Assembly (NCBI RefSeq): GCF_030540765.1
Contig: NZ_JAUOEL010000007.1
Coordinates: 1-64,000 of the forward strand
Reading direction: 5' to 3'
Length of the DNA: 64,000 bases
Origin: Flavivirga jejuensis
Lineage (GTDB): Bacteria > Bacteroidota > Bacteroidia > Flavobacteriales > Flavobacteriaceae
This document shows, piece after piece, positions 8,656-54,641 of the stretch. Numbering within the stretch: position 1 is the first letter of the stretch; every line of letters begins with the position of its first letter. Under the pieces are notes generated by a model. The model was not told where the DNA came from. It did not search any database and saw only the letters and a program-made list of their open reading frames with translations. Made by a program: the position numbers and the translations under genes.

Positions 8656-8730
8656 ATTTTACATAATATTAATTATAGTACAAATGTATTTCATATCATT
8701 AGATAGCTATAATTCAATATTATGTAAAAT
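8656..8730 (+). repeat. Solo palindrome of the dispersed repeat family
   Basis: The arms ATTTTACATAATATT-AATTATAG (8656-8678) and CTATAATTCAATATTATGTAAAAT (8707-8730) pair over 23 bp with one bulged base; the 28-base loop itself contains TACAAATGTA. It matches the right-hand module of the repeats at 25424, 29403, 35021 and 36665, here without the left module. It lies between the LytTR gene and the next gene and could also act as a terminator. Confidence 0.8.
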
Positions 8731-10600: not shown

Positions 10601-13240
10601 TTAATATGGTACAATCATTTCTATTAATTTGGGAGTAAATAGTTTTAATGTTGGGTTTTCTACTAAACTTATGGATACGGAATTTGTAAAGCTGAAAGTT
10701 TTAGTTTCATTAGACTTTAGAGCTATTGCTTTTGCTATAAAATCACAATAACTATCTGATAATTGTCCTTCTCCCGTTTCTTGATTTAAATATGATGAAG
10801 CAATGTTTTTTGCCAAAAGATAACGGTACATATATATTCTTAGTTGGCGTGGTGTAATATTTTCTGATATAGTTTTTGAGTATTTTTCGAGTAATGTTAA
10901 TTCTTTTTTAAGTAGAAAAAACTCATTTTGAGTTTCAATCTGGTCACTTGTAATTACATCAGGAAATATGATGATTTCATGAGATTTTTCATCAAAAGAG
11001 CTTGTTTCAATTTCGTCTTCTTCAAAAGGTTCTTGTTGAGTATTTTCAACATGTTCTAAAATTTTATTATTTATGGCATAAGTTTGTAGTATAATAGCTT
11101 GTTCCTTTTCATTTAATTTTGGCAATTTAATTCCGCCTATAAATAGCTTATCCATATACTCCTCTATTAAATTCTTAGAAGACGAATTATTAATGAAGCC
11201 AAAATCTTTGTACTTATATTCAATAGCTCTTTCTAATAGAAATTCATCTACAGCAACTAAAATAATAATACGTTCTATTAAATCCTCATCATCTAACATT
11301 ACTCTAAGTGCATCAATTATTTGTAAAATCTTTTCTTCCTTGCACCTATCAATGTCGTCAACAAATAATAACAATCTCTTCTTTTTTCCTTCATTAGAAT
11401 CTAGCCAATGCTTAATTAAAACTGTCAATTCATTTTGAATTTCAGCCTGAATACCTAATATTTCATTGAAATTGCGTGAATTAGAATATGATAAAATAGT
11501 AGATTTTAAAGGTTTATAATATTTACGATAATGTATATAACCTTGAATTAATCCTATAACTCCAACAAGGCCTACTACATAATTTAGCATTTCGATTTTT
11601 AACTTCGAACTAATACTATAAGTAAATAAAACTGATAATATTACAGAACCAATAATTGAAATAAGGGGTGAAAGCCCTTTTCTCTTTATATTTAAAGAGA
11701 AGACTTTTTTAAACTTTTTACAAGAATTTGATTCTCCAATATACCCATCTAATATTACTCCGTATAGGTGTGCCCATATTGTTTCAGTTTCTTGATATTT
11801 CCACGCATTAAACGTAATGTGTTCGTATTCAAATTTTGAATCATTAAATACATTAAAATATGCTTTTAAGCGGTCATATAAGAAAGTCTTGCCTCTTCCC
11901 CAACTACCAAATATTCCGAGCATTTGACCTTTGTTTTTATCCAAATTTTCAATAATTCCAGCTAATTCTTCTGCTATAATTTCAACTTCCAATTTTGGCT
12001 CAACCAATTCATCAATGGTTATTTTTTGTCTGGATGCTGCGCCTAGCTTAGGTAGAATTAAAGTCGTGTTGAAATTTGTAATCAATTCCGCTCTAAAATA
12101 TTTTCTGAAAATTAATTCATTTGCCAATTCATATTCTTTTTTAGGAATAGGAATACAGGTGGAAGGATTGTTAGGTGTCCACCATTTAGAAGATCCTTTA
12201 AAGTTAGCATCAGTTACACTGTCAAATAAAAAGCGATACTTTCGTTGTTTCCATCCTTCTTCGTCATTGAAATCATAATCTTCAATATTATCGTTTAAAA
12301 ATTGACCAACCAACAAAAAACGAGAGTTACCCCAGCACAAAAAAAACAAGTCTCCTGCTTTAGCCTCCTTAAAATTCTCGTATTGTGAATCTCCATCTCT
12401 ACCTTTAGCTTCAGTATCTTCATGTACAACTACGATATTATTATCTATACAATATTGTATTTCTTTTAAGGTTGGAAAAAACTTTATACCATGTGAAATT
12501 TTATAAATGGAGTTTTCTTTAACTCCTATCTTACGATAACGAACATTTTCATTATCATCATTATCTTGTATCATTTTATTTTTTACGGCATTGAAAAAAT
12601 CAAAAACTTGCTTTTGCATGTCTTTACCATCTTCAATTTTTTTTGAGCTTATAAAACGATCTTTCAATCGATCATATAAATGACAAATTAAACCACGGTA
12701 GTCAATTTGGAAGAAAAGCTGTATTGCAGTTTTCTGATTAGCGTTAGCCTTATTGTATATAGCCATCCATACATTATCTGAACCAAAGTTCCTAGCCCCA
12801 TTAAAATCAACAACGAATGGCTTAGCAGCTACATTACCAATGTTTAATTTTTGGATAATTTCATTTCCAAATTGATGTATTGTTTGTTTTACATCAAAAG
12901 ATGTGTCATTGCTAATTATAGGATAGAGTATTGAAAAAGTCCCCCATGCTTTGAAACTATTTTTATCTGCTTTAGTTTCTGATTTTTCGATTAATGAATC
13001 TATGAACTTAATGTCAACAAAAGTGCCTTTTAGTAAAAGTTCAATGATTTTGAACCGTAAGAAGTTTACTGGTTTTTTTTCGCTATGACTATATCGAGTA
13101 TGTAAAGTAGTAAGTTTTTTATTGTCAACAGAATTCAATTCTTTAACAAGAAGTTCTTCACTGAGTTTTAAGCTATACAATCTCTCCGCTTCATCTTTTA
13201 TTTCTGCTACTATTTTATTTAATTTAATCATTTTATGCAT
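10601..13240 (-). CDS. KAP-family P-loop NTPase with N-terminal EVE-like domain
   Basis: An 879-residue protein in three parts. Residues about 60-200 form an unassigned N-terminal domain, perhaps like the MrcB/DUF3578 N-domain (NVWMAIYNK..QLFFQID). Residues about 245-375 resemble an EVE/PUA-like fold (AGDLFFLCWGNSRFLLVGQF). Residues about 420-800 are a KAP NTPase: Walker A GSWGRGKT (445-452), Walker B RLLLFVDDIDRC (622-633) and two membrane helices (about 522-542 and 553-570) inserted in the domain, as is usual for KAP proteins. KAP NTPases and EVE domains both recur in anti-phage loci, so a defence role is plausible but not shown. No partner gene adjoins it: repeats lie on both sides. Confidence 0.8.
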   Translation of the reverse strand: MHKMIKLNKIVAEIKDEAERLYSLKLSEELLVKELNSVDNKKLTTLHTRYSHSEKKPVNFLRFKIIELLLKGTFVDIKFIDSLIEKSETKADKNSFKAWGTFSILYPIISNDTSFDVKQTIHQFGNEIIQKLNIGNVAAKPFVVDFNGARNFGSDNVWMAIYNKANANQKTAIQLFFQIDYRGLICHLYDRLKDRFISSKKIEDGKDMQKQVFDFFNAVKNKMIQDNDDNENVRYRKIGVKENSIYKISHGIKFFPTLKEIQYCIDNNIVVVHEDTEAKGRDGDSQYENFKEAKAGDLFFLCWGNSRFLLVGQFLNDNIEDYDFNDEEGWKQRKYRFLFDSVTDANFKGSSKWWTPNNPSTCIPIPKKEYELANELIFRKYFRAELITNFNTTLILPKLGAASRQKITIDELVEPKLEVEIIAEELAGIIENLDKNKGQMLGIFGSWGRGKTFLYDRLKAYFNVFNDSKFEYEHITFNAWKYQETETIWAHLYGVILDGYIGESNSCKKFKKVFSLNIKRKGLSPLISIIGSVILSVLFTYSISSKLKIEMLNYVVGLVGVIGLIQGYIHYRKYYKPLKSTILSYSNSRNFNEILGIQAEIQNELTVLIKHWLDSNEGKKKRLLLFVDDIDRCKEEKILQIIDALRVMLDDEDLIERIIILVAVDEFLLERAIEYKYKDFGFINNSSSKNLIEEYMDKLFIGGIKLPKLNEKEQAIILQTYAINNKILEHVENTQQEPFEEDEIETSSFDEKSHEIIIFPDVITSDQIETQNEFFLLKKELTLLEKYSKTISENITPRQLRIYMYRYLLAKNIASSYLNQETGEGQLSDSYCDFIAKAIALKSNETKTFSFTNSVSISLVENPTLKLFTPKLIEMIVPY

Positions 13241-19860: not shown

Positions 19861-20048
19861 CCATTCCATACACATTCCCACTTCACTCCTATCGTCGCTT
19901 CGGGCAAAGAATATTCTATTTACATTGTAGAGAAAGTTTTTAGAAGAAAAAAATAAAGAAAAGTAGTCGTTTAAACTTCGCTTTTACCAAAGCAAAGTTA
20001 TATAAAATTACTTAGTAAACTTTAATCTTTTGGGTTTTATTGTAATCG
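19861..20048 (+). repeat. Dispersed repeat, copy D
   Basis: CCATTCCATACACATTCCC with the common centre, then a shortened middle and right part; the AACGCAGAACATTATA arm is lost and CAAAGTTATATAAAATTACT follows directly. The tail TTTTATTGTAATCG leads straight into a parE 3'-end remnant. Confidence 0.85.
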
Positions 20049-20066
20049 TGTTAAGAAAGTTTACAA

Positions 20067-20111
20067 TTATAAATTATTTTCATAATCCATACTTTGATTC
20101 AATACACGAAA
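20067..20111 (-). pseudogene. parE 3'-end remnant
   Basis: Minus-strand translation gives FRVLNQSMDYENNL followed by stop, nearly identical to the end of the intact ParE at 34385-34675 (RVLSQSMDYENNL). The flanking 30 bases toward repeat D also match the flank of the intact parE. Only the last ~14 codons remain; the next gene on the right is unrelated. Confidence 0.75.
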
Positions 20112-20144
20112 GCTAAACTATGAGTTGTAGCAATAATAATGGGA

Positions 20145-21344
20145 TTATTCAACAATAACCTTTTTTACTAATTTTCCTTTATTAGTATCTAATTTTATAA
20201 AATATAATCCACGTTGTAATTGATCCACTCTAATTTGATTCGTTTTCTGTGTTGTTAACACACGCTTACCAAGTGAATTTACCAGCTCAATTGTTTTAAT
20301 AGTAATATTACTTGAGATGTTAATGTATTCTGAGGTTGGAATTGGATAAATCAATATTGAAGAACCTGTTACCTCCTTTTGTGTTACACTTAAGGGGACT
20401 CCTAATTCATCACAAGCATTAGGTATGCCATCGCCATCTGCATCGGGACCAACTTCCAGATAATCTGCTATACTATTTATATCCCCATCTAAAGGGGTAA
20501 TTGTATAATCAATGCCTGATCCTGCAGTAGTAACTATTCCTGTAACAGGATCTACAGTTATTAATGTATCATCACCAAACACTCCTGTATCTCCTCCGTC
20601 TGCTGTTGATAAACCATAAGCTTCATTAGCATCACTACATCCGTCTACATCGCTATCTGTATTTTGAAAATCAAAAGAACCATCTGATAATGTATCTATT
20701 GGTATATTACCGGCACCTCCATTAGCAGAATTAGGCACTCCGCTATTATTTGTAGAGTCTCCATCTGTATCGTTAGCCTGACCAAAGTTTACACTATTTG
20801 GTATGCCTCCTGCTTCTATAACATCATAAATACCATCATTATCACTATCCAAATCATAATGATTGGGAACACCATCACCATCAAAGTCAAAGACAGGATC
20901 TAGGGTGTCACAAATATCATCGAGATCAGCATCTATACACACAGGTGCAGTTGTACTACTATTATTATCAAAATCTTGATAGTTTGGTATACCATCCATA
21001 TCTGCATCGGCAGATGGGTCTACTCCCAAATTATTCTCTGCTGTATCCAAAATGCCGTCATTATCGTCATCTAAATCGATTGTATTCTCTACGTTATCAT
21101 TATCATTGTCTATCTCAGACATAGATTTTATAAAACTTATAGTTGCATCCTTTAATGTATACGTGCCATCTATGTTAACAGATAAACCATGGGTTTGAAA
21201 ATTGTTTTCAGGAATAAATTCTGGTAGCGCTTCCAAAGTGTTTATTACCTGTGCAGGAATACTATGTAAAATCAATATCAAAAAGAATAGAATAGATATG
21301 GTATTTATTTTTTTAGTAAAGAATGGTATTTTAATTTTCATCAA
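20145..21344 (-). CDS. Thrombospondin type 3 repeat protein with T9SS tail
   Basis: Secreted 399-residue protein. Signal peptide with INTISILFFLILILHSIPAQ. The body is a run of acidic, calcium-binding thrombospondin-3-like repeats (DNDNDNVENTIDLDDDNDGI, DADMDGIPNYQDFDNNS, DFDGDGVPNHYDLDSDNDGI) typical of rigid cell-surface stalks. The end is a T9SS type A sorting domain (IYPIPTSEYINI..GLYFIKLDTNKGKLVKKVIVE). No catalytic domain is visible, so it may be a stalk, a spacer or a truncated adhesin. It is divergent from the HTCS regulator gene with a 179-base spacer and sits to the right of a parE remnant. Confidence 0.82.
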   Translation of the reverse strand: MMKIKIPFFTKKINTISILFFLILILHSIPAQVINTLEALPEFIPENNFQTHGLSVNIDGTYTLKDATISFIKSMSEIDNDNDNVENTIDLDDDNDGILDTAENNLGVDPSADADMDGIPNYQDFDNNSSTTAPVCIDADLDDICDTLDPVFDFDGDGVPNHYDLDSDNDGIYDVIEAGGIPNSVNFGQANDTDGDSTNNSGVPNSANGGAGNIPIDTLSDGSFDFQNTDSDVDGCSDANEAYGLSTADGGDTGVFGDDTLITVDPVTGIVTTAGSGIDYTITPLDGDINSIADYLEVGPDADGDGIPNACDELGVPLSVTQKEVTGSSILIYPIPTSEYINISSNITIKTIELVNSLGKRVLTTQKTNQIRVDQLQRGLYFIKLDTNKGKLVKKVIVE

Positions 21345-21386
21345 TAAGTGTTTTAGTTAAGTGTAATCCAGAGATTAACTTTGATA

Positions 21387-21394
21387 TATTTTTG
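21387..21394 (+). promoter_or_regulatory. Possible -7 box for the HTCS operon
   Basis: TATTTTTG matches TAnnTTTG; it lies 129 bases before the ATG at 21524, which would give a long leader. Confidence 0.3.
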
Positions 21395-21523
21395 TAATTT
21401 TGAAACATTAAAGATATGAGTATAAGCATGTTGAATTCCAGACAATCTCTATTGAAAATTTGCCAATTTTGAGGTGCTTCTATGTAACCTGTACGATTCA
21501 TTATACCTTAGTCAAGCAATAAA

Positions 21524-24232
21524 ATGTCCCTATTAATGATAAGAATCATAATCCCTTTATTTTTTTTAATAGCTACAACCATTACTAAAGGACAAACGTC
21601 TTTGGAAGTGTTGTCAATTAGTATTTATGAAGGGGATATTTTACCTGAAAATCCTTTAAAACATATAAAATGGGAACCTTTAGAAGCGTTTAACACCATG
21701 AATAGTGAAGTTCTTGTGTATTGGTTAAGATTGAAATATAAAGAATCCGCTAATCAAAATATGAGACATGGTGTGTTATTGTTATCCAGGTTTTTTGACA
21801 AGGTAGAATCTTATAAGACCCCTCATGCTAGTTCTGCGATTTCTATCACTGGAAGACTGGTAGATAATCAAGATAAAACACTTACCAGAGGGATTTATAA
21901 AAACTCATTACCGCTTTCTTTTGATAAAGAAAACACACTTTATATAAAGTTAACCAATTATCCATTAGTAGGATCAATAAGCAGGTCTCTGGACGGCATG
22001 GAATACCTTTCCATAAGGAGTTTTGATATATATTCTACGAAGATTCATACCATTTTCACACTTGCTATTGGGATGGAAATAATCATTTTCCTGATTTTTT
22101 TATTTCTGGTGTATCTAAAACCCTCCAGGGAGAATATTTTTTATCTGTTACTTATTTTTGTTAGCGTACCTTTAATCATCATTCGTAATCAGGTATTTGA
22201 TTCATTCTTCGATTTAAATAGTCAGCTTCTTTCTAATCTTGAATTCTGCCTTACTATCTTAGTAGTTTATAGTTTTTCGGCTTTTAGTGCGCATTATATT
22301 AAAGTCATGGAATATTCCCGTTTTTGGTATCGATTCATGGCATCGCCATATATTTTGTTATTGATACCAGCATTTTTCTATTTTGATAAACTATATCCAT
22401 ATCTGTTAATTGCTTTCTATTTTATAATTACAATAATTAGTGCGACCATCTTCCTTATTAAATTTCGAAAAAAGAATTCACATAGGGCAAATGTATTCCT
22501 TTTGGCTATATGTCCTATTACAATCGCTGGGGTACTCCCGTTTTTGGCAGCTAGTAAAATTATTCCTGCTAATTTCTGGACAATCAATAGTATGCTTATC
22601 CCCTTAGTTTTTAGAGATTTTGTTTTTATGACCGATCTTGTATTAGGTTTCTTTCGTGATAAATCATTGATCGCAGTAAAAGAAATAGAAGTTGGTCAGC
22701 TTCAAGAAGAAAAGAAACAATTAAAGAAAATAGAGGAATTAAAGACTACCTTTTTTAACAATATCTCCCATGAATTGAGAACACCACTTACGCTGCTTTT
22801 AGGTCCATTGGAAAACGTATTAAATCATGGTAAGTTAAATAAAGACATGGAACAACAATTAAAAATGTCCATGAAAAATGGAACATACCTATTACAACTG
22901 GTCAATGAAATGCTGGATTTATCTAAACTTGACCACGGGCAACTTACCATTACAAAGAAGAAACAGGATATTATCCCCGTATTAAAAGGTATTATTGAAT
23001 CATTTAAGAATTACGCTACCGAAAATAAACAAACCATCTACATTACGCATTCATCCAATCAAATATTCATAGATACTGATCGAGATATATTTGAAAAAAT
23101 GATCATCAACCTTATTTCTAATGCCATAAAATATAGTAAATCAACGGGAGAAATACATATAACAGTAAAAGAATATAAGCATTCGGTATTTATTTCTGTT
23201 GCTGATTCAGGAATTGGAATAGCTCCAACCGATATAGATAATATATTTAAACGCTATTATCGGGTAGATCGTAAACGATCTGTGAGTAGTACTGGAATTG
23301 GTTTAGCTATTGTAAAAGAATTTATAGAGCTTCATAATGGCAACATAACAGTACAAAGTACTTTAGGGAAAGGATCTTTGTTTGAATTAAGTTTCCCTTT
23401 AGTAAAAGATTCTGCTAAATCTAATACTACTATTATACCATATGCTATTAACGATCTGACGTCAATAGACCCTAATAAGTCATTAATCTTGCTTGTAGAA
23501 GACAATCAAGATATGAGACAATACCTGGAACAGCACTTGAGCGACTACAATCTATATCAGGCAGCTAACGGCCAAGAAGCCTTAAGGCTCTTAAAATCTA
23601 TACAAAAACCAGACCTTATTATCACCGATTACATGATGCCTGTCATGGATGGCGTTGAATTTATTAAAACATTAAAATTAGACGAGAGTTTTTCAATGAT
23701 TCCAATAATTTTTCTAACCGCCCGGACACTACAAGGTGATAAAATTAAAGTATTACATATGGGGATAGATGACTATATTATTAAGCCATTTGATAAGAAA
23801 GAGCTTAAATTACGTATTAATATATCGCTTAAAAATGCTTTAAATCAAAAGAAAAGTATGTCTCAGTCGATTGACATATTTTCTTTACCAGAAATAGTAC
23901 AGTTTAAAAAGAAATTGGATGCTTATATTATTGAAAACATATCCAATCCCAAAATGAGTAATATTGATTTAGCTTATCATTTTTCTATCAGTGAACGTAG
24001 TTTGATTAGAAAAATTAAATCTGCTACAGGACAAACACCCGCCGCCTATATTAGAGAAATTCGATTACAATCGGCAAAACGTAAGATCGAATATAATGAA
24101 AGAGCTAGTATTAGTGAAATCGCCTATGAATTAGGCATGAATAATCTATCTCATTTTACTCAGGCTTTTAAAAAAAGATTTGGAAAACTACCTTCTGAAT
24201 ATTTTAGAAAATCTAATGATAAAATAACGTAA
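21524..24232 (+). CDS. Hybrid two-component regulator (7TMR-DISM, HisKA, HATPase, REC, AraC HTH)
   Basis: One-protein signalling system of 902 residues. Signal peptide (IIIPLFFLIATTITKGQ), a 7TMR-DISMED2-like periplasmic domain (about 25-160), seven membrane helices (about 170-385), HisKA with His at about 416 (NNISHELRTPL), HATPase with NLISNAIKYS and GTGIGLAIVKEF-like boxes (GIGLAIVKE), a receiver domain with Asp at about 702 (IITDYMMPVMDG), and an AraC-type DNA-binding domain (about 790-895, GMNNLSHFTQAFKKRFG). It differs from the polysaccharide-sensing HTCS of Bacteroides by having the 7TMR-DISM sensor in place of Reg_prop propellers. The downstream secreted protein gene starts 5 bases after its stop and is a likely target or partner. 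Confidence 0.92.
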   Translation: MSLLMIRIIIPLFFLIATTITKGQTSLEVLSISIYEGDILPENPLKHIKWEPLEAFNTMNSEVLVYWLRLKYKESANQNMRHGVLLLSRFFDKVESYKTPHASSAISITGRLVDNQDKTLTRGIYKNSLPLSFDKENTLYIKLTNYPLVGSISRSLDGMEYLSIRSFDIYSTKIHTIFTLAIGMEIIIFLIFLFLVYLKPSRENIFYLLLIFVSVPLIIIRNQVFDSFFDLNSQLLSNLEFCLTILVVYSFSAFSAHYIKVMEYSRFWYRFMASPYILLLIPAFFYFDKLYPYLLIAFYFIITIISATIFLIKFRKKNSHRANVFLLAICPITIAGVLPFLAASKIIPANFWTINSMLIPLVFRDFVFMTDLVLGFFRDKSLIAVKEIEVGQLQEEKKQLKKIEELKTTFFNNISHELRTPLTLLLGPLENVLNHGKLNKDMEQQLKMSMKNGTYLLQLVNEMLDLSKLDHGQLTITKKKQDIIPVLKGIIESFKNYATENKQTIYITHSSNQIFIDTDRDIFEKMIINLISNAIKYSKSTGEIHITVKEYKHSVFISVADSGIGIAPTDIDNIFKRYYRVDRKRSVSSTGIGLAIVKEFIELHNGNITVQSTLGKGSLFELSFPLVKDSAKSNTTIIPYAINDLTSIDPNKSLILLVEDNQDMRQYLEQHLSDYNLYQAANGQEALRLLKSIQKPDLIITDYMMPVMDGVEFIKTLKLDESFSMIPIIFLTARTLQGDKIKVLHMGIDDYIIKPFDKKELKLRINISLKNALNQKKSMSQSIDIFSLPEIVQFKKKLDAYIIENISNPKMSNIDLAYHFSISERSLIRKIKSATGQTPAAYIREIRLQSAKRKIEYNERASISEIAYELGMNNLSHFTQAFKKRFGKLPSEYFRKSNDKIT

Positions 24233-24237
24233 TAACT

Positions 24238-25218
24238 ATGACAACTCTTTTAAAACAAATCAAAAAATTAATATTTCTAAATCTCGTAGTCTTCTTTTCA
24301 TCTATAACTACTTACAGTCAAGTTATAAATGACGATTTTGAAGATGGTGATATAACTGGATGGATAGAAGGAACTGCTAGTCATTGGGTGAATTCAACAA
24401 CAAATCCTATAACAGCCGCAAGATCTTTAAAACATAATTTTTCAGGTACATCTGGTGATAGTTATATTTACCAAGACATTTCTTCTTTAGATTTAACTAC
24501 AGAAAATATTACCTGGCAGTTTAATTTAAAAACAGGGAGTTGGGATCCTTCTTCATCGAACAAGTTCTGGGTATACCTAACTGCAAACAATAATGATTTA
24601 AATGGTTCTTCCGTAGATGGATATGCAGTAGGTGTAAACCTTACTGGCTCTTCAGATTTTCTTACTTTATGGAAAGTGACTAACGGTGAAGCTGATGGCG
24701 CTGTAATTACAACTGCAATTGATTGGAACGCCAATAATACAAAAGGAATCAGAGTTACAAGAACAAATGATGGTTTATGGGAATTATTAGTTGATAATGA
24801 TGGTGGTTTTGAGGCTTTGATGTCTATGGGTACAGCTACAAATACAGATTACACATTTGATACTAATTTTGGACTTAGTTTTACTTTTTCTGCCACTAGA
24901 GCTGGTCTCTTATGGATGGATGACGTTTTTGTACAAGGTGTCGATGCAACTTTAAGTGTTAATGACCTAACAATTTCGCTTGATGAGGTACTTGTATTTA
25001 TGACAGATAAACGCTCCTTAACGGTTAATGGTCTGCAGAATACTCATTTTTCTGTCAGGCTATATTCCATAATCGGCGAACAGGTCCTAAACAAATCTTT
25101 TATATCAAATGGTGTGAACAATATTAGTTTACCCCAAACTCTTGCTAGTGGTATTTATATTGTTAAGCTTACTACCTATAATTCAGAAATACTAAGTAAA
25201 AAGATTGTTATTGAATGA
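24238..25218 (+). CDS. Secreted jelly-roll-like protein with T9SS tail
   Basis: Exported 326-residue protein. After the signal peptide (IFLNLVVFFSSITTYSQ), residues about 30-235 start with DDFEDGDITGWIEG and form an aromatic-rich beta domain like concanavalin/LamG or carbohydrate-binding modules. The C-terminal third is a T9SS type A domain (SVRLYSIIGEQVLNKSF..GIYIVKLTTYNSEILSKKIVIE). It lies 5 bases downstream of the hybrid regulator gene, so both are probably one transcript, an unusual pairing that suggests a surface protein tied to its own sensor. The ligand is unknown. Confidence 0.75.
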   Translation: MTTLLKQIKKLIFLNLVVFFSSITTYSQVINDDFEDGDITGWIEGTASHWVNSTTNPITAARSLKHNFSGTSGDSYIYQDISSLDLTTENITWQFNLKTGSWDPSSSNKFWVYLTANNNDLNGSSVDGYAVGVNLTGSSDFLTLWKVTNGEADGAVITTAIDWNANNTKGIRVTRTNDGLWELLVDNDGGFEALMSMGTATNTDYTFDTNFGLSFTFSATRAGLLWMDDVFVQGVDATLSVNDLTISLDEVLVFMTDKRSLTVNGLQNTHFSVRLYSIIGEQVLNKSFISNGVNNISLPQTLASGIYIVKLTTYNSEILSKKIVIE

Positions 25219-25303
25219 TTCTCATAATTTAAGATAAATAAGTGATTCAGAATACAACTATCTAAAAACAAACTCTTTAGTCTCATAAAACTGTTTTCAG
25301 TAG

Positions 25304-25423
25304 GTGTTATTGTTTTTCTAATTGTTTTACATAAATACATGCTTTAATAATCATACTATTTATGTGATTTAATGTATTTAATATTAATAAATTAGAGAGC
25401 TCAAATTTATGTATTCGATAATT
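25304..25423 (-). pseudogene. parD 5'-end and promoter remnant
   Basis: Homologous to the start and upstream region of the intact parD at 34662-34919. The shared bases include GTTATTGTTTTTCTAATTGT and TTTAATAATCATACTAT, and the match continues up to the left end of repeat E just as the intact parD promoter runs up to repeat I. Only about the first nine codons remain, shifted out of frame by one base. Confidence 0.7.
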
Positions 25424-26062
25424 ATTCCTATTACATACACATTCCCACTTCGTTCCTATCGTCACTTCGGGCAAAGCGTATTCCATTACATTTTTAAAGA
25501 AACATTTGAGAAGAAAAAAATCAAAAAAAAGCAGTAGTATAAACTTCGCTTTTACCAAAGCAAAGTTACATAACGCAGAACATTATAGTACAAATGTATT
25601 TCATACAATTAGATAGCTATAATTCAATATTATGTAAAATATCCCAATATGTTCACGTTTCTATTTGATGTATAGTACTTGGGTCATTAAACATTCGTGT
25701 TTGGCTTCTCGTTTAATTTAAATATTCTGTACAATCGTTCATGTTTTTTTAAATATGCGATTCTCAAGAAACTTCACGTTTACACATTTGTAGCTATAAT
25801 TAGCCGTTATGTAAAATTGCCGCTCGCAAATGCTCGATTGCTTTTTAAAAATAATTATGCTGTCGCAGTAATTTTTTTAAACACAATTATCCATCGCTTG
25901 CAACCGCCAAAAAAAGCTAACTTTTGCTTCTTGTTTAAATTCGCGTATTCGATGAAAATCCCGCAAGATTTTTTTCTACGCAATTCTCGTAAAGGTTTCC
26001 GCAAGAGTATAAAATTTTCCTGCCACATCATCCACACAAAAATTTCTATACACTTGCTCAAA
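25424..26062 (+). repeat. Dispersed repeat, copy E (long form)
   Basis: Left module (TACATACACATTCCC, common centre, AAAGAAACATTTGAGAAG), then CATAACGCAGAACATTATAG, first palindrome ending TATTATGTAAAATATCCC, a ~110-base spacer with GTACTTGGGTCATTAAACAT, a second half-palindrome ending GTTATGTAAAATTGCCG, and a ~270-base extension (ACAATTATCCATCG, CAACCGCC) shared with copies G and J. Short open frames on both strands inside it are not credible genes. Confidence 0.85.
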
Positions 26063-28250: not shown

Positions 28251-29256
28251 TAGAACAGTTCCTTCACTTAAATTTCTCTTTATTGGATAATTCCCTGTTA
28301 AAAATTTCATTCTGTCTTCTAAAAGAGAAAAATCTCTGTTTTTTAAATAATCTTAGAATGAACGAACAATTCTAGTTTTATATTTATTAACCTTAGTTTT
28401 AGCAATAGAGACTGTTATCTTTTTATCAGTAAACTCATTTTTTGTTTTCTTACAACAGTCAGTAAATAAAAACTTACACCCTAGATATTCAAAATTCAAT
28501 TCCTTTTCAGAGGTTTTATCATAATTATTTACTTCAAAAAATTTTGTTTTTTTTATCATTAAAAAGTAAAGGTGTCCGTAAAAGTTCTTTTTCCTTTATT
28601 TCCTCTATAATTTCTAGAGGATTTTTTGTTGTAAACAAGATAATATCATCAACATATCTCGCATAATAATAGACACCATCAAGTCTATTAACTTTTCTGT
28701 CAAAGTCTCTTAAATAAAGTTCTGATAAAGTAGCACTTATCCCTATTCCTCTTGGTAACCCAGTAAATAAACTAAACTCACTTAATTCAAAAAAATCTTC
28801 AAGAATATTTATAGCTCTAGTTGAAAGCAAAGCATCATCTTTAAGTTTATTTAAAATCCATTTCCTATCAATACTTTCATAAAATTTTTTTGAATCCAAT
28901 TTTATAATTGACATTGGAACTGCTTCTTGTAATAAGATAATTATTTGATTTACTATAAGGTTTCTATCTGCTTGTTTAACCTTATAGAACCTTTTTATAG
29001 AATCATTAATCTTTCTAAGAGCAAAATCATCTTCCACATTAGAAAGACTGAAAATTTCATTGGAATCATTAAGTATTTTATTTATAGATGAAACTATATA
29101 ATTATCAGAATTTATCTTACCTGAAATTTCAGTAAGAGTATCTATTGTTTTTATGCGATTTTCTCCAAATCCATCATACTTTTTGTAATCATCAAAAGTG
29201 ATTAATCTTAAAAGGTCTGATACATTAAATGATTGGTTTAGCATAAGTTTTCGCAA
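28251..29256 (-). pseudogene. Broken reverse transcriptase, DRT/Abi-like
   Basis: Remains of an RNA-directed DNA polymerase. The first 240 codons (29256 to 28534) hold the palm motifs: LDSKKFYESIDRKW, GLPRGIGISATLSELYLRDF, and YYYARYVDDIILF with the catalytic YVDD. An eight-A run near 28545 shifts the frame; removing one A joins it to NNYDKTSEKELNFEYLGCKF and on to IVRSF. A TAA stop follows, then DYLKNRDFSLLEDRMKFLTG in the same frame, ending at repeat F. The PRGIGIS and ARYVDD wording is closer to defence-associated (DRT/Abi) enzymes than to retrons or group II introns, which usually have a different motif 4 and YADD. Frameshift, stop and truncation make it inactive unless slippage occurs. 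Confidence 0.75.
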
Positions 29257-34134: not shown

Positions 34135-34364
34135 CCATTCCATACACATTGCTACTTTACTCCTATCGTCGTTTCGGGCAAAGCGTATTCCATTACATTT
34201 TTTTAAGAAAATTTAGAGAAAAAAAAAGAATAACTATTTGGTGTATGTACTTCGCTTTTACCCAAGCAAAGTTACATAACGCAGAACATTATAATTCATT
34301 TTCATATTATAATCTGACATTATATAAAATTGCTTTGTAAACTTTATTTTTTTGAGTTTTATTG
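34135..34364 (+). repeat. Dispersed repeat, copy H
   Basis: CCATTCCATACACATTGC, slightly altered centre (CGTTTCGGGCAAAGCG), GTATTCCATTACATTT, CCCAAGCAAAGTTACATAAC, GCAGAACATTATAATTC, palindrome and tail to TTTTATTG. It runs directly into the 3' flank of the intact parE gene. Confidence 0.88.
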
Positions 34365-34384
34365 TCTTTAAAGAAAGTTATAAT

Positions 34385-34675
34385 TTATAGATTATTTTCA
34401 TAATCCATACTTTGACTTAATACACGAACAATCAAAATATCAATATCTGTAGATAAATAAAAAATAGTGTGGGATTTATAAGAAAATCTTTTTAATGACA
34501 GAATAAATTCAGATGCATCACGTCCTAAAGTACTATTATCAGCTAAAATTTGAAATAGTGTATGCATTCCTGATAAATATGTTTGGGCTTGTTTTAATCC
34601 AAATGTTTCAATGCCGTACTCATACATTTTGGCAAGATCAATTTCGGCGCTTCTTGATACTTTATAAACGCCCAT
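34385..34675 (-). CDS. parE: ParE-type toxin (RelE/ParE superfamily)
   Basis: Toxin of 96 residues from the Met that overlaps the antitoxin gene by 14 bases (MGVYKVSRSAEIDLAKMYEY); an in-frame Met seven codons earlier lies deeper in parD. The pattern AEIDLAKMYEYGIETFG, then a helical hairpin, then RFSYKSHTIFYLSTDIDILI and VRVLSQSMD is typical of ParE proteins, which poison DNA gyrase. It is encoded after parD, as usual. Fragments of near-identical sequence lie at 20067, 50391 and 54642, so this locus has been copied and eroded several times in the region. Confidence 0.88.
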   Translation of the reverse strand: MGVYKVSRSAEIDLAKMYEYGIETFGLKQAQTYLSGMHTLFQILADNSTLGRDASEFILSLKRFSYKSHTIFYLSTDIDILIVRVLSQSMDYENNL

Positions 34676-34919
34676 CTGCCCGCATACGGTCTTCAACTTC
34701 CTTCATGATATCTGGAACAGATTTATCGCTAATACCACTTTCCATACCTTCAGTTATAGCTGCTTTGAGCGCTGAAAACTTGGCATTTTTTGCTTGATCT
34801 CGTCTTACTAAATCACGAAGGTATTCACTGTCATTAGTAAATTCTCCCTCTGTTATCCGTGACTTTATCCACTTATCCTGTTTTTCCGTAAATGTTATTG
34901 TTTTTCTAATTGTTGACAT
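34662..34919 (-). CDS. parD: ParD-type antitoxin
   Basis: An 85-residue antitoxin. The N-terminus (MSTIRKTITFTEKQDKWIKS) and REGEFTNDSEYLRDLVRRDQ-like segment (TEGEFTNDSEYLRDLVRR) are the ribbon-helix-helix DNA-binding part of CopG/ParD proteins. The C-terminal half would wrap the toxin. It is first in the operon and overlaps parE. Its promoter region, with TTTAATAATCATACTAT, is conserved beside repeat E where only a stub of parD survives. The pair lies as a unit between repeats H and I. Confidence 0.9.
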   Translation of the reverse strand: MSTIRKTITFTEKQDKWIKSRITEGEFTNDSEYLRDLVRRDQAKNAKFSALKAAITEGMESGISDKSVPDIMKEVEDRMRADGRL

Positions 34920-35020
34920 AACGCATGTGTTTTAATAATCATACTATTGATGCAATATAGTATATTTAATCAAATGTTACAAAATTATAATAGTCAAATT
35001 CATGCGTTCAATAACTAATC

Positions 35021-35358
35021 CCATTCCATACACATTTTGCCTTCACTCCTCCTCCCTTTCTGCAAAAAGAGTATTCCATTACATTTTTAAAAGAAACTTT
35101 TGGGAAGAAAAAATTCAAGAAAATTGAGTTAAAGAACTTCGCTTTTACCAAAGCAAAGTTACATAGCGCAGAACATTATAGTACACTTTTAATATTGGAT
35201 TATCCAGTGGATGATTCAATATTAAAACAATATTTTACTATAGATTTGATATGTGTTACATATCATTAGATAGCTATAATTCCATAATTATGTAAAATAT
35301 CTCATAAGGTTTTAGTATTCCAAAAGAAAATTTAGAACTTGGGTTATTAAACATTTGG
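35021..35358 (+). repeat. Dispersed repeat, copy I
   Basis: CCATTCCATACACATTTTGC with the alternative centre shared with copy B (CTTCACTCCTCCTCCC..CTGCAAAAAGAG). GTATTCCATTACATTTTT, CAAAGCAAAGTTACATAGCG and GAACATTATAGTACA follow, then an insertion of ~60 bases, the palindrome TAGCTATAATTCC..TTATGTAAAAT and the spacer end GGGTTATTAAACATTTGG. It abuts the parD promoter. Confidence 0.85.
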
Positions 35359-37080: not shown

Positions 37081-38682
37081 CTACTGTAATTTAGTTATGG
37101 CTTTTTTTAATGGCTTCATTTTAAAACTTATTAATAAAGTAATAATTCCTGTAATTAGCCAACAAACATCAATAAAGAAAGTGCTAGTATTTTGTATAGC
37201 TTTACAAAACCAAGATCCCGATTGTATTCCATTTAAAATAGGAATTAGAATCCCAAAAATACCAGCTAATAACAAAAAATGTTTTGTTATTTTATGAATA
37301 CTTTTTTTTAAGAATGCATAAATTATTAAAACCAACCAAAACAAGAAAAAGACATTTGATAAAATACCAAATTCACCTTTGGTGCTAGATGAAAAAACTT
37401 TTACTAAACAAAATAATAAAGCAATTGAAGGGTAAAGCCCCATACAAACTCCCATATAAATAGCTCCTACGTTAGTATTAAACTTTGCTTTAGAAATAAA
37501 TTTTTTATTTGCTCTAGCTTCTAACCAAATTAAAACTCCAGATATAATTACAAAACAGGTGATAATTGATAAAATAAAGTAAATTATTTTTGTTACGTAT
37601 CCTCCATATTCTGCATAATGTAATTTTCTTATTGTTTTACTTGTGGCATTATAATAATCGTCATAAAGCAGTTTTTGATATATTTTTTCACCATCAGATA
37701 GTCTAAATAAAGACCTCGTACTTGCTGCAAATTTATTTGCACCATTATGTAATAAATCTACAGACATACTTGCATCCGGTTCTTCAAATTTTTTAATTTC
37801 TACAAAAACTCTATTTAAATCATTTTTATTTACATCTGCAAGAGTATTATCTATAAGCGTATTAATTTGAATTTTGGGATTGGTTTGTTGCACTTCAACA
37901 ATAGCTGTTTTAGGCGGTAAAATTAATTCTGTTGTTTTATCAAAATCTCCATCAAAAACAATAAAAAATGAAGGCAAATACAATAAACTTAATAATCCGA
38001 AATAGACACCTGTTATGGCATACATCAACTGAAAAGGAATCCCTAAAACACCTAGGGCAGCATGTGCATCTGTCCACAGGTTTTTAATACTATTTTTAAT
38101 TCTAAAAGTGAAAAAATTTGAAATTATTTTTTTCCAATGAATGATAATACCCGAAAATATTGCTACAGCAAAAAATAAAGAAACAAGTCCTGCTATATAG
38201 CGACCAATTAAGGGTATCTGTTTAAAATAATGTAAATAATATAAAAAAGAGCCTAAGTTCCCTTGAACAACTCTTTTCCTTGCTATAACATTGTATGTTT
38301 TTGGGTCTATTTTAAGATATATTTTAGCCTTTGCCAAAGAGTCTTTAGCGTTAAATGCTTGTTTAGTGTCTTTTTGGATTTTTATTGGGCTTGAGTTAAC
38401 TGAAATATAATTTGCATTAGACCTGTTGTAGTTTATTGTAATACTCTCTCTTCCTTTTAAATCAAATCCTTCTTTTTTTGTTATTTCTAAAATGCGATCG
38501 TAATCTATTTTAGGTGTAAATACTATGTTTTTTGTTTCGTTATGTTGCCACTGATTTATTTCATCCATAAATAAAGCAAAAGCTCCTGCAAAAAAAATGA
38601 CAAACAGACCCACACTAATAACAATACCACTAACAGTATGTACATTAAAAAAAACGTTATAATCTCTTTTGTTTTGTTTCAT
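37081..38682 (-). CDS. PepSY-domain membrane protein (ferric-siderophore reductase type)
   Basis: A 533-residue inner-membrane protein starting MKQNKRDYNVFFNVHTVSGI; its ATG overlaps the stop of the preceding gene as TAATG, which decides against a longer upstream frame. The first helix (VISVGLFVIFFAGAFALF) is followed by a periplasmic PepSY domain, a helix near residue 160, a second PepSY region and four or more C-terminal helices. His residues in helices (FNVHTVSG, IHWKKI, WTDAHAALGVLG, RKLHYAEYG) are the usual heme or iron-reduction ligands of this family. It is the last gene of the siderophore operon and probably reduces or releases iron in the periplasm. Confidence 0.85.
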   Translation of the reverse strand: MKQNKRDYNVFFNVHTVSGIVISVGLFVIFFAGAFALFMDEINQWQHNETKNIVFTPKIDYDRILEITKKEGFDLKGRESITINYNRSNANYISVNSSPIKIQKDTKQAFNAKDSLAKAKIYLKIDPKTYNVIARKRVVQGNLGSFLYYLHYFKQIPLIGRYIAGLVSLFFAVAIFSGIIIHWKKIISNFFTFRIKNSIKNLWTDAHAALGVLGIPFQLMYAITGVYFGLLSLLYLPSFFIVFDGDFDKTTELILPPKTAIVEVQQTNPKIQINTLIDNTLADVNKNDLNRVFVEIKKFEEPDASMSVDLLHNGANKFAASTRSLFRLSDGEKIYQKLLYDDYYNATSKTIRKLHYAEYGGYVTKIIYFILSIITCFVIISGVLIWLEARANKKFISKAKFNTNVGAIYMGVCMGLYPSIALLFCLVKVFSSSTKGEFGILSNVFFLFWLVLIIYAFLKKSIHKITKHFLLLAGIFGILIPILNGIQSGSWFCKAIQNTSTFFIDVCWLITGIITLLISFKMKPLKKAITKLQ

Positions 38683-38966
38683 TATGGCTTTAATATGTAA
38701 ATTACAATTATAGACAGTATTATTATGAATAAAAAAATGATCCAAGATATCCATGCTTTTTTTATCCAATACACAACCAATATTAATAGTGGCCATATTA
38801 TAAGCGTTGAGTATAATGCTGTAACCAAAACTATTCTTTGATCGAAGATGTATGATAATGCTATATGCGCCATCATAGTAGCAAACAAACTCCCTAAAAA
38901 AGCAGCTAAAAATTTACTTGCTTTTATCCAGCTAGATTGAATTAAATATTTTTTATTAGCAGGCAT
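38682..38966 (-). CDS. DUF3649 iron-uptake membrane protein
   Basis: A 94-residue protein with three hydrophobic helices (FLAAFLGSLFATMMAHIALS, TALYSTLIIWPLLILVVYWI, WISWIIFLFIIILSIIVIYI). DUF3649 proteins are found with DUF3325 and PepSY proteins in siderophore operons, the same order as here. It starts right after the DUF3325 stop and shares the A of TAATG with the PepSY start, so translation is coupled on both sides. Confidence 0.75.
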   Translation of the reverse strand: MPANKKYLIQSSWIKASKFLAAFLGSLFATMMAHIALSYIFDQRIVLVTALYSTLIIWPLLILVVYWIKKAWISWIIFLFIIILSIIVIYILKP

Positions 38967-39302
38967 TTAGATTAATTTAAGAGAAGTTTCAATTGAAAAT
39001 AAAACACAAAAGGAAAGGAAAATTATTATTTTTTTTGGTTTATAAAGTGGAGCAAATAAAACAATTAATGAGGCAAAAGTTGGCCAAACGACCAACAATA
39101 GTAATAGTGCATTAGTTACACCTGTTTTTCTATAAAGAAAACAAAAACCAATAATTAAAGAAATTACCGCTAGACCTTTTGCTAATAAAGGTCTTGCATT
39201 AAAGTATAATGACAGATTACCTTTATTAAATTCAATTCTTTTAGCTAAAACAAACAATAGGTAAATAGAAACAAAAAAGAAAAACAACGAAAAACTAAGC
39301 AT
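38967..39302 (-). CDS. DUF3325 iron-uptake membrane protein
   Basis: A 111-residue protein with four predicted helices and the internal RPLLAKGLAVISLIIGFCFL segment of DUF3325. It abuts the DUF3649 gene with no spacer. A strong hairpin lies between it and the DUF4374 gene upstream, so the three small membrane genes may be made at lower level than the receptor. Confidence 0.75.
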   Translation of the reverse strand: MLSFSLFFFFVSIYLLFVLAKRIEFNKGNLSLYFNARPLLAKGLAVISLIIGFCFLYRKTGVTNALLLLLVVWPTFASLIVLFAPLYKPKKIIIFLSFCVLFSIETSLKLI

Positions 39303-39325
39303 TTTTTAAACTATTTTAGAATAAA

Positions 39326-39353
39326 CCTTCTCGCTATACGTTAAGCGAGAAGG
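39326..39353 (-). terminator. Intercistronic hairpin inside the siderophore operon
   Basis: CCTTCTCGCT (39326-39335) pairs with AGCGAGAAGG (39344-39353), 10 bp and GC-rich for this region. On the coding strand it is followed by TTTATTCT, a weak T run. It could be a partial terminator or an mRNA end that sets the ratio of receptor and lipoprotein to the inner-membrane proteins. Confidence 0.65.
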
Positions 39354-39373
39354 CATTATATACTATGTAATAA

Positions 39374-40657
39374 TTAGTTAGATGATAAATCATAAATACC
39401 TCGAATGGTTCCGCCTTCTACATCAAAAGCTTTTTCTACAGCACCAGAAGTAGCGTTATATTTATAAATGGCATTTTCATCAGTATTTTTAATAGTTAGA
39501 TAAACTTCTCCATTAATAACTCGAGATGATTGCGTTACAAAACCACCTTGAGGAGGTAATCCTGGAATAATTGATACATCTTTTGTATTTACATCTATAA
39601 GAATCCATCTAGCTGTATTTTCTGTAAAAAATAATTGTTGGGCTTGTAATAATTGTGCTTGAGTTAAATTACGGGGATCACCACCAACAGAGGCTACTAA
39701 CTGTAACACTCCTTGTGGGATATCTGTAATAGCATAGGCAATTGCTTTACCATTTCCTATATAATTAAAAAAGAAACAATTTGATAATAAAGTATTTAGT
39801 GGGTTTGCCGCCAATGCAGGATTAAAAGTATAATTTGGATCAAAATCATTAGATCCTGCTGGGATTTTATATAATGCACAAGATGTACCTTGTATTGCCA
39901 CACCAGTATTTAAATAATAAATATTTCCTTGTTCATCAACATTAGTATGACCTTCAAGATTACTATAAGCGTTTATTCCTGCGTCTGGGATTACCGTAGT
40001 ATTTACAAATGCTCCTGTTCTATAATTAGCGGATTGAACATAAAATGAAGTAAAAGGTTCCGCTGTATCTGCTGATCTTACATAACAGAAAAACTCATCC
40101 CCTCTTACAAGAAAGCCATTTAAAATTTGTTCATTAGGCAAGTTTTCTGAATCCTCCATATTTATTAAACCTGTAATTTGCATAGTGGTTGGGTTAAATA
40201 CGGTTACCTGAGCGGGATTTGCTCTATCGGTAAACAGACCAGTAGTGGCATCTATTATTTTAGGTTGCCCTCTATTGCCTGAATGTGCTATACTGGCCTC
40301 ATCTTCTTCTAATTCTCCATCAATATTTACAAATATTTTAGCTAATCTATCTGTTTCATCTAAACCATTACTATCAAAAAAACAACCGTCATAAAATTCA
40401 TTTGGAGTAAAGCTAGTGAATACTTGACCATCTGTTAAATTAGCAACTCCGCTAGGTAACTCTTCAAAATATTTAACTATAAAATCGTCATTTGGAGTTG
40501 TGGCGTTAATTACAAAACCTGTTTTTAAACGGGTTTCTTCTTCTGGTTCATCAACATCATCATCATCATTTTTACATGATGTGGTTATTAAAAAAGACAT
40601 CGCTATTAATAAAATACTAAGAGTGTTGTTTTTAAATTGTTTAAAATATAGATTCAT
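39374..40657 (-). CDS. DUF4374 lipoprotein, siderophore operon
   Basis: A 427-residue lipoprotein. Signal ILLIAMSFLITTSCKNDDDD gives a Cys at the lipobox followed by an acidic run, a surface-export-like signature in Bacteroidota. The body has repeated beta segments like the DUF4374 protein at 2895-4232. Its start is 2 bases after the TonB receptor stop, so it is tightly coupled to the receptor. Probably binds or passes on the iron chelate. Confidence 0.85.
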   Translation of the reverse strand: MNLYFKQFKNNTLSILLIAMSFLITTSCKNDDDDVDEPEEETRLKTGFVINATTPNDDFIVKYFEELPSGVANLTDGQVFTSFTPNEFYDGCFFDSNGLDETDRLAKIFVNIDGELEEDEASIAHSGNRGQPKIIDATTGLFTDRANPAQVTVFNPTTMQITGLINMEDSENLPNEQILNGFLVRGDEFFCYVRSADTAEPFTSFYVQSANYRTGAFVNTTVIPDAGINAYSNLEGHTNVDEQGNIYYLNTGVAIQGTSCALYKIPAGSNDFDPNYTFNPALAANPLNTLLSNCFFFNYIGNGKAIAYAITDIPQGVLQLVASVGGDPRNLTQAQLLQAQQLFFTENTARWILIDVNTKDVSIIPGLPPQGGFVTQSSRVINGEVYLTIKNTDENAIYKYNATSGAVEKAFDVEGGTIRGIYDLSSN

Positions 40658-40659
40658 TA

Positions 40660-43338: not shown

Positions 43339-43376
43339 CTTTATTTTTTTGTCTTTTTAATGTATCGTTGATATAT

Positions 43377-44294
43377 TTAATAAATCATTATTGTGTCTCC
43401 ATTCTTCTTGTACTTAAGTTTCATAACAAAACCTATTTTTTTTAGGAGATTTTCTAAAGTTGGGGTTTTATGGTATCCTTTATATACCTGGTTTAAAACA
43501 CTTTTATTATTTACTTGAATTTTTACATTGTATTTTCGTTCAATATCTTTAAAAACATTTCTTAAACTTTCATTAAAAAATAGTTCATTCTTAGTCCATG
43601 AATTATAGAAATTAGCATTTACGTCTTTTTTGGTAATGCTATAGTTTTCACTCAATATTACTTGCTGATTTGGGAGTACTATTTTACTATTGGTAGGTTC
43701 TTCTAAACTTTTAAATGATACTTTTCCCTCATTTAGAGTTAAATAGGTTCGTTCATTTGGATAAGCTGATAAACTAAATTTTGTGCCTAAAACGGTAGTC
43801 TTTGATTCTTTTGTAGTAATAGTAAATGGATGTAAACTATCTTTAGCAATTTCAAAATAAGCTTCTCCATTTAGACTTACTTCTCTATTTTTTTTAGAAA
43901 ATTCTTCAGAGACTAATAAAACAGAGCTAGCATTCATATGTATAACAGACCCATCATCTAATTGAATACGCTTCGTTTCTCCTACTAAAGTTTCGTATGT
44001 TGTAAAGGGTGTCTTTAAGAAAAACTGAAAAGTTATTAAACCAATAAATAGTGCTACACAAGCAACACTAACATAATTTATTAGTTTTTTATAGGCTTTC
44101 TTTTTTTGTTTTGAGGGTTTAATGTTTTTAGAAATATCTCCCCACATTAAATCACTTTCAAATTGTAATTCTTCTTCAGATAAAATATTAGGAATATCTT
44201 TATTGTTTTCTAACCATAATTCTATTACTGCAATTTCTTCTTTTGAACATTTACCATTAACATATTTTTCTAATAATTGAGAATTAATCTTCAT
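43377..44294 (-). CDS. FecR-family anti-sigma factor
   Basis: A 305-residue single-pass protein. A cytoplasmic N-terminus (MKINSQLLEKYVNGKCSKEE), one helix at about 74-92 (NYVSVACVALFIGLITFQFF), the periplasmic FecR domain (about 105-205, RIQLDDGSVIHMNASSVLLV and GEAYFEIAKD), and the DUF4974 C-terminal domain (about 230-300). It would hold the sigma factor encoded upstream until the STN domain of the receptor signals. It lies 38 bases upstream of the receptor gene. Confidence 0.92.
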   Translation of the reverse strand: MKINSQLLEKYVNGKCSKEEIAVIELWLENNKDIPNILSEEELQFESDLMWGDISKNIKPSKQKKKAYKKLINYVSVACVALFIGLITFQFFLKTPFTTYETLVGETKRIQLDDGSVIHMNASSVLLVSEEFSKKNREVSLNGEAYFEIAKDSLHPFTITTKESKTTVLGTKFSLSAYPNERTYLTLNEGKVSFKSLEEPTNSKIVLPNQQVILSENYSITKKDVNANFYNSWTKNELFFNESLRNVFKDIERKYNVKIQVNNKSVLNQVYKGYHKTPTLENLLKKIGFVMKLKYKKNGDTIMIY

Positions 44295-44437
44295 ACTATA
44301 TATTCATAAGGTGTTTAAAACTGCCATTACTTATATAGTCGTATGTTGGATATGTTAAGTGAAGGTCAAAAAAGTAAAAAAAAGCATATTTATAATTATA
44401 TTTTTTAACATACTCAAATACAGTGTTTTGTATAGTA

Positions 44438-50390: not shown

Positions 50391-50443
50391 GACTTAATAC
50401 ACGAACAATTAAAATATCAATATCCGTAGATAAATAAAAAATG
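50391..50443 (-). pseudogene. parE remnant
   Basis: Minus-strand translation IFYLSTDIDILIVRVLS is identical to that part of the intact ParE at 34385. The final codons and the 5' half are gone. About 20 bases further right lies a scrap of repeat centre (ACTTCGCTCGGGCAAAGAAT). Confidence 0.75.
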
Positions 50444-50656
50444 AAATGCCCATCTCTTCTAGGTAAGTTAACTTCGCTCGGGCAAAGAATAATCTATAAC
50501 TGGATCAATAGATTGAAAAAATCTTTGTGTTATTCTCTTTTATCTTGAAACATTTAGAACACATTAAACTACTTAGAAATTCATTTACTTAAATATATCT
50601 CTTTAAAACATAAATGCTTTTTATCGGATTTTATTACTTTTAATCGGGTTTTTACA

Positions 50657-54631: not shown

Positions 54632-54641
54632 CTCTGTGTAA

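Follow-up and report, generated by a model that had tools for sequence, protein, structure and literature searches.

In the first 64,000 nucleotides of contig NZ_JAUOEL010000007.1 of Flavivirga jejuensis, hereafter the window, a block at 20067-25425 holds three genes between the two ends of a parDE toxin–antitoxin locus and is bordered by two copies, D and E, of a repeat that recurs along the window. We consider it likely that this D-E block is a module of a cassette array built by Xer recombination on the XerC-arm side of the chromosomal dif, the chromosome-dimer resolution site, and that it arose from a parDE module through replacement of the middle part. A preliminary description of this DNA, made from the sequence alone, had noticed the parDE ends and their changed interior; it missed the one-way stacking of the repeats on one arm of a dif-type site.

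parDE scars and the cargo between them

The parE end lies beside repeat D, where positions 19998-20110 match 34320-34428, which comprises the intact parE end of the window and its 3' flank, at 83% over 113 nt (E 1e-28). The scar proper (20067..20110, minus strand), supported by similarity and profile matches, retains the final 44 nt of parE with the stop codon; positions 20073-20108 translate as RVLNQSMDYENN, and the aligned counterpart in ParE reads RVLSQSMDYENN. Beside repeat E, positions 25294-25427 match 34882-35020, the parD start and its promoter, at 74% over 140 alignment columns (E 2e-18). Both matches come from comparing the D flank with that of repeat H and the E flank with that of repeat I, H and I being the repeats around the complete parDE unit of the window. 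At E, sequence and similarity delimit a parD scar of about 40 nt of parD with the start codon at 25330-25332 (25288..25332, minus strand), and the parD promoter region has been kept (25333..25425, minus strand; similarity and profile). The start codon is preserved in the sequence and is directly followed by a stop. The two D-E scars were also recognised by a profile built on nine parDE units, one of them that of the window (E 6e-11 and 2.5e-13).

The complete module carries parE at 34385..34696 (minus strand; PF05016) and parD at 34662..34919 (minus strand; PF03693, TIGR02606). The ParE and ParD domains are both present at 34385-34919, as the preliminary description had proposed for an intact unit, whereas the D-E block has scars only. 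Similarity and profile matches likewise confirm its claim that parDE ends stand at both borders of the block with other genes inside, and support its suggestion that cargo replaced the middle of an addiction cassette.

Three open reading frames (ORFs) of 399, 902 and 326 aa lie between the scars, all open and unrelated to parDE. Cargo 1 (20145..21344, minus strand) bears a C-terminal sorting domain of the type IX secretion system (T9SS; PF18962, TIGR04183). Cargo 2 (21524..24232, plus strand) is a regulator of the hybrid two-component system (HTCS) type, in which 7TM-DISM, HisKA, HATPase, response regulator and AraC-type helix-turn-helix domains were matched, and cargo 3 (24238..25218, plus strand) has a T9SS sorting domain by domain match. 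The trio had been read from the sequence in the same way, and these matches bear it out, except that cargo 1 had been called a thrombospondin-3 T9SS protein: its T9SS tail stands, and Pfam reported no thrombospondin repeats at E 0.001. Compared genomes are denoted here by G and a number; the genus set comprises 12 genomes, G000-G011, of which G000 is the genome of the window. Beyond its own genome, cargo 3 is matched over its full length by G004 alone in a sample of 397 genomes of the family, which does not contain G005.

Repeat anatomy and module boundaries

At every repeat, two modules meet in a hybrid Xer site, which corrects the earlier treatment of the repeat as part of one unit: its halves belong to two neighbouring modules. 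The hybrid site is made up of a dif XerC arm, a 9-nt centre and an XerD-like arm. At E (25564..25593, minus strand), the sequence shows these as a dif-type XerC arm, the centre TGTTCTGCG and the XerD-like arm TTATGTAAC, and the core of this site recurs as a one-way series. In the genome of the window, the repeat core occurs 12 times in forward and never in reverse orientation (at most 3 mismatches), 10 of the 12 copies being in the window; the backwards-read control gave 2 and 3. One exact match to the core (L098) comes from a metagenome bin with the label Pleomorphochaeta; nearly all other matches belong to the family, and this outlier is perhaps a binning error.

Adjoining the hybrid site is a constant end of about 150 nt, termed A, which was located with a profile built from 79 of 121 core matches. 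The A end at repeat E (25430..25576, minus strand) travels with the block, that at repeat D (19861..20005, minus strand) is part of the neighbouring module outside it, and that of the complete parDE module lies at repeat I (35021..35169, minus strand). The opposite end, termed C-I, runs from 19998 to 20066 on the minus strand in the D-E module; as delimited by alignment of G000, G004 and G005, it consists of the parE 3' flank and an inverted dif-like XerD arm, and it is 97% identical in G004 and G005. The hybrid site at D has been deleted in the window's own genome and is present in G005. Beyond the hybrid site at E, an inverted dif-like partner of 11-7-11 layout (25612..25640, plus strand), recognised by its sequence and by the enrichment of such sites, is part of the next module. 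Within repeat I, a 20-nt inverted repeat at 35187-35227 recurs in the corresponding position ahead of parD in G009, G010 and G011, and may represent a short insertion into the attachment region.

The halves of a repeat that links two modules are expected to differ in their history, and the module boundary was traced by comparing the first 100 nt of each A end with G000. At E, identity is 99/100 in G005 and 95/99 in G004; at D, it is 80/100 and 77/100, respectively. From this contrast, the D-E module reads on the minus strand as A of repeat E, parD scar, cargo, parE scar and C-I of repeat D. Judged by these identities, its boundary on the D side is shown to lie at the hybrid site.

Inverted partners are a frequent feature of these sites. 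Among the 113 of 121 core matches with sufficient flank, 59 have an inverted dif-like site with a score of at least 14 of 16 in the 160 nt upstream of the hybrid site, compared with 3 of 565 shuffles. In the directional controls, direct orientation upstream gave 7 of 113, and the downstream side 0 and 1 of 113.

A dif-type site at the array end

The array ends at a putative chromosomal dif (8656..8683, minus strand), identified by its sequence and its recurrence in the family, with XerC arm TTGTACTATAA, centre TTAATA and XerD arm TTATGTAAAAT. This copy, the nearest to fixed genes, differs from the other repeats in reading CTATAA-TTAATA-TTATGTAAAAT on the minus strand. The fixed genes, encoding an MscS channel, a DUF3817 protein and a VTT protein, occupy the opposite flank of the site in nine genus genomes, and they adjoin the site in G001 as well. 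The right arm presumably resembles that of E. coli dif. In PMC3091885 and PMC4246890, dif is laid out over 28 bp as an 11-nt arm, a 6-nt centre and an 11-nt arm, the same plan as here.

Allowing at most 1 mismatch, the dif-type site is single in its own genome and was found in 169 of 199 sampled family genomes, in 162 of them as exactly one copy; the pattern read backwards had matches in 9 genomes. A looser dif pattern gave scattered matches in five genomes, among which the array-end site alone recurred. The 8 nt preceding the search pattern are also conserved (e.g., T in 30, G in 29, C in 29 and T in 29 of 30 loci), extending the site to TTTGTACTATAATTTATATTATGTAAAATA, at 30 loci that had themselves been picked by the dif-type search pattern. 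Coarse GC skew gives mixed, moderate support for the site as the terminus dif: the best-fit terminus interval covers it in one of the four genomes analysed, G001. The position of dnaA was dropped as a guide to the terminus, the skew-fitted origin lying away from dnaA in G001 and G004. We infer that 8656..8683 is the working chromosomal dif.

One-way stacking on the XerC side

Around this site, the modules stack in one direction on one side. In ten genomes, nine of the genus and G016, all 50 of 50 A ends lie on the XerC-arm side and share the orientation of dif. This count leaves out 8 A ends of G005, G009 and G017, where the fetched stretch holds no dif, and 3 of G001, where the site used is only dif-like. 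Twenty further family genomes were taken in list order from the dif-positive ones, passing over G202, whose site is near a contig end; G060, among the twenty, offers only 1.2 kb on the XerC side. There, 13 of 13 A ends within 10 kb are on the XerC side, all in dif orientation, and no A end was found in about 200 kb of XerD side. A separate count gave the same orientation at 52 of 52 loci, in which pieces of one element may count twice and which is not used as main evidence for this reason. One-sided, one-way A ends of this kind are what recurrent insertion at dif's XerC edge predicts; random insertion or ordinary transposition does not predict them.

These counts bear on whether Xer recombination need be invoked. 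The repeats could be dispersed elements similar to miniature inverted-repeat transposable elements or repetitive extragenic palindromes, with cargo and parDE shuffled by homologous recombination and the D-E block left by a chance deletion-insertion. Consistent with this, array content varies among close genomes, the repeats are long enough for recombination, pieces of them are found away from dif, and neither an Xer site nor a clear repeat was seen at the inner cargo/parDE junctions of the block. Such shuffling does not account for the strict one-sided, one-way order by the dif-type site in the genus and in all nine (9/9) further A-bearing family genomes, nor for the fall in block identity at the hybrid site of D though the A half is a conserved repeat, and we regard it as unlikely. 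An Xer-built array remains our preferred reading.

parDE and the block among relatives

Relatives were checked for an intact parDE without cargo between the same repeats. In the stretches fetched from the genus set, full-length parDE stands there in 8 of 12 genomes (G000, G002, G003, G007, G008, G009, G010 and G011), and broken copies occur in G006 and, as a second copy, in G002; a whole-genome DNA search of G001 found no parDE stretch. The two-scarred block itself is present in two of the 11 other genus genomes, G005 (99%) and G004 (92%). C-I, the parE scar and the parD scar with its promoter are 97-99% identical between G000 and G005 and between G000 and G004. The right scar is closer to the parDE of G008 (86%) and G011 (85%) than to the window's own copy (75%).

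Array positions agree in part. The first full repeat after dif is the start of the block in G004, of parDE in G007, G008 and G010, and of a broken parDE in G002. The window's block sits at a greater distance from dif, with three other A-end-bearing repeats before it, and its place in the array looks to have since shifted. Because relatives carry parDE between the same repeats, and given the similarity and the array positions, the block looks like a parDE unit whose interior was replaced. The alternative idea in the preliminary description, that parDE is the usual occupant of a repeat-bounded slot, holds only in part: the unit is widespread among the genus genomes, but DNA matches to it, many of them partial, exist in just 42 of 397 genomes of the family, and the slots hold many other cargos.

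Instead of one split parDE, two separate parDE modules could have flanked the cargo and each decayed to a scar. parDE relics are indeed frequent in the array: a search for further split parDE ends, an extension of the earlier observation, recovered two additional parE scraps in the window, at 50391-50448 and 54637-54672, the second of 34 nt only. The former (50391..50448, minus strand; similarity), a third parE relic, 19 codons long and flanked by a C-I-like end on one side and a short piece of A on the other, is probably a decayed parDE module, and one-sided parE scars occur in other lineages. However, the module that holds both D-E scars has a single A end and a single C end, the scars are ordered and placed as in one parDE unit, and the parDE of G008 is closer than the window's own copy to the right scar, clearly, and to the left scar, slightly. 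A two-module origin is therefore improbable in our judgement, and descent from a single parDE module is retained below. Within the comparison, a lone parD-promoter scar was found in G011, and scars on both sides of cargo only in the Flavivirga block.

Outside the genus, parDE is found on the XerC side of dif at a distance of about 70-290 nt in G082, G171 and G113, the last with no open parE frame of 80 aa, of 7 kb in G069 and of 36 kb in G158. In most other parDE-matching genomes, the site is not listed on the same contig. Scars of the parE 3' end stand next to differing genes in G378, G292, G228, G195 and, weakly, G167; in G378 the order is A, a 1078-aa gene, parE scar, C-I and dif. DNA search found no full-length match to the window's parDE in these five genomes, and in G292 a partial match of 219 nt on a different contig. 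Further weak parE-end matches were seen in G099, G258 and G417. Since their truncation points differ, the five scars probably arose independently, and such ends in five more lineages, one of them weak, suggest on alignment evidence that cargo replacement is recurrent.

Observations that weigh against the proposed Xer-built parDE descendant

A number of observations count against the reading proposed here. At the module's right border, full-length identity of the A end at E is 89% in both comparisons, because the G005 contig leaves the repeat there and the variable part in G004 differs; the boundary is accordingly better defined on the left than on the right. For the left scar, candidate parents differ little in identity (broken copy of G006 88%, G008 84%, own 83%, G007 and G011 82%). 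The slot argument is weakened by G011 and, with its broken copy, G006, where parDE abuts dif itself. In G105, a partial parDE match lies 10 kb off on the XerC side in opposite orientation, and in G176 two partial matches lie megabases from the site.

Similar points concern dif and the Xer sites. The site falls about 0.1 Mb outside the skew-derived terminus interval in G004 and G158 and about 0.55 Mb off it in G092. Among the 20 further family genomes, 11 have no A end within 10 kb of dif and 9 have any. In G001, the main repeat array is at 0.84 Mb and the conserved site at 4.07 Mb, with only an A fragment 2 kb away, and several genomes have repeat pieces on other contigs; rearrangement may possibly lie behind these arrays and pieces away from dif. 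About half of the 113 hybrid sites lack a strong inverted partner by the motif used, and predicted single-stranded DNA (ssDNA) folds of five hybrid sites were uneven (z -4.2, -1.5, -2.2, -3.4 and -0.1). Neither modules in circular or single-stranded form nor a helper phage came to light; viral contigs contained no exact copy of the 25-nt hybrid core, and phages and plasmids no match to the H-I unit.

Recombinases and comparison with known systems

Within the D-E and parDE modules, no recombinase domain was found. The host XerD model was matched above its cut-off (339.6 vs 329.6), and the best XerC match fell below its own (295.1 vs 335.15). The modules probably use the host XerC/XerD. Pfam recognised no phage replication or virion genes among 42 window ORFs, and Rfam had no match in the window.

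By analogy, the modules appear to work most like integrative mobile elements exploiting Xer recombination (IMEX) of the CTX-phi type, serving as gene cassettes. According to PMC4246890, CTX-phi has two inverted dif-like sites 90 bp apart, the attP1 centre being 12 bp and the attP2 centre 5-7 bp, and its folded ssDNA is exchanged by XerC only, irreversibly once double-stranded. Shared with this class are the lack of an own recombinase, apparent insertion at dif and a dif-type site kept at the array end; the pairing of two inverted dif-like sites, of which one has an over-long centre, is strong at about half of the hybrid sites. The modules differ in that no phage genes were recognised in the scanned window proteins, in their long arrays of unrelated cargo, in the family-shared constant end of about 150 nt and in the Bacteroidota host. 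Since the 42 scanned ORFs yielded no recognisable gene for phage replication or coat proteins, we do not file the modules as phage IMEX.

The dif modules of Acinetobacter carry toxin–antitoxin cargo and are bounded by ordinary dif-type sites, neighbouring sites often lying in opposite orientation. The present sites differ in being hybrid and asymmetric, with a 9-nt centre and inverted partners, and the array differs too, its A ends all having one orientation and one fixed array end lying at the chromosomal dif. The two systems share accessory genes between Xer sites in arrays, which PMC12907356 describes for Acinetobacter as clustered arrays of dif (pdif) modules and chromosomal islands.

Bacteroidota ssDNA phages are inferred to use dif in PMC3091885 and PMC9719478, the latter describing Flavobacterium ssDNA prophages at dif. 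According to these two papers, no own recombinase is recognised in Bacteroidetes microvirus proviruses, and some have an additional dif-like site near one end. With these proviruses, microvirus and PhiCjT23-like Flavobacterium prophages alike, the modules share the phylum and the dif target; the proviruses have Rep and capsid genes, whereas none were recognised in the modules.

A chromosomal integron, or a cluster of attC sites lacking integron-integrases (CALIN), would also give a one-way cassette array; the hybrid and inverted sites would then be attC, on which IntI acts or once acted. The likenesses are real: sites in the same orientation with variable cargo, palindromic recombination sites composed of two simple sites, and a toxin–antitoxin cassette with its own promoter. 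Yet no match to TIGR02249 (IntI) passed the cut-off in the window's own genome, the only one searched for IntI, so the array is not filed as an integron. In addition, the sites share dif arms and adjoin dif, the constant part reaches about 150 nt past the crossover, and many cargos are long or multi-gene. The absence of IntI above cut-off in that genome and the dif-derived, dif-anchored sites led us to reject integron/attC as the lead reading, and we consider it very improbable. No paper on dif-site cassette arrays in Flavobacteriaceae turned up in a literature search, which did not extend to bioRxiv or to most subscription journals.

Other cargo and loci

Several further cargos were recorded in the window. 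At 10601-13240, an 879-aa KAP P-loop NTPase, with weak likeness to the QatA and PifA defence proteins, is the sole gene of a module near dif. A truncated antiviral reverse transcriptase at 28534-29256 covers positions 1-237 of 412 of Drt3a (227 vs 200 bits cut-off) before its reading frame is cut short, perhaps through a frameshift near a run of T, and is a defence gene relic carried as cargo. Two sets of sigma factor, FecR and TonB receptor genes (37081-45016 and 54926-59289) are cargo of two different modules, and seven in-register 165-nt tandem units of 83-88% identity (50943-52232) lie within a 666-aa T9SS-tailed protein. Elsewhere in the genome, at 215-230 kb of contig C29 (L003, L005, L007, L008), a row of short frames, four of them of 113 aa, match in each case only the C-terminal part of tyrosine recombinases; this is possibly another repeat-driven locus.

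Proposed mechanism and implications

The module anatomy, the one-way stacking at a mostly single-copy dif-type site and the shared scars are shown by the comparisons above. On the minus strand, a module extends from its hybrid Xer site through the constant A end of about 150 nt and the cargo to the C end, often holding an inverted dif-like site, after which another hybrid site or dif follows. With its over-long centre and, in about half of the cases, a strong inverted dif-like partner, the hybrid site resembles CTX-phi attP, which makes XerC joining of folded ssDNA the likely mechanism. By this analogy, the module would take an ssDNA form and XerCD would catalyse its insertion: a folded single strand would be joined to dif by XerC, dif would be rebuilt at the array end, and, insertion being hard to reverse, modules would pile up and decay. 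parDE is the cargo of one common module, and in the lineage of G000, G004 and G005 a 5.2-kb three-gene segment would have replaced its interior of about 450 nt, leaving both ends.

A broader proposal, which we find plausible and advance only tentatively, is that these arrays are a Flavobacteriaceae Xer-based counterpart of integrons, in which non-phage cassettes with a family-wide attP-like end would be captured as folded ssDNA at the terminus by host XerC, stacked irreversibly beside dif, and in which cargo could be swapped into an ancestral parDE chassis. If so, these bacteria would gain accessory genes, including those for secreted proteins, uptake operons, defence genes and toxin–antitoxin pairs, via the chromosome-dimer resolution site and without an integrase of their own. 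Xer-based cassette capture would then extend beyond phages and Acinetobacter, dif arrays would be linked with integron-like behaviour, and a toxin–antitoxin cassette could be a chassis for other cargo. The entry point of new genes, on the XerC side beside dif, and their order would become predictable in strain collections.

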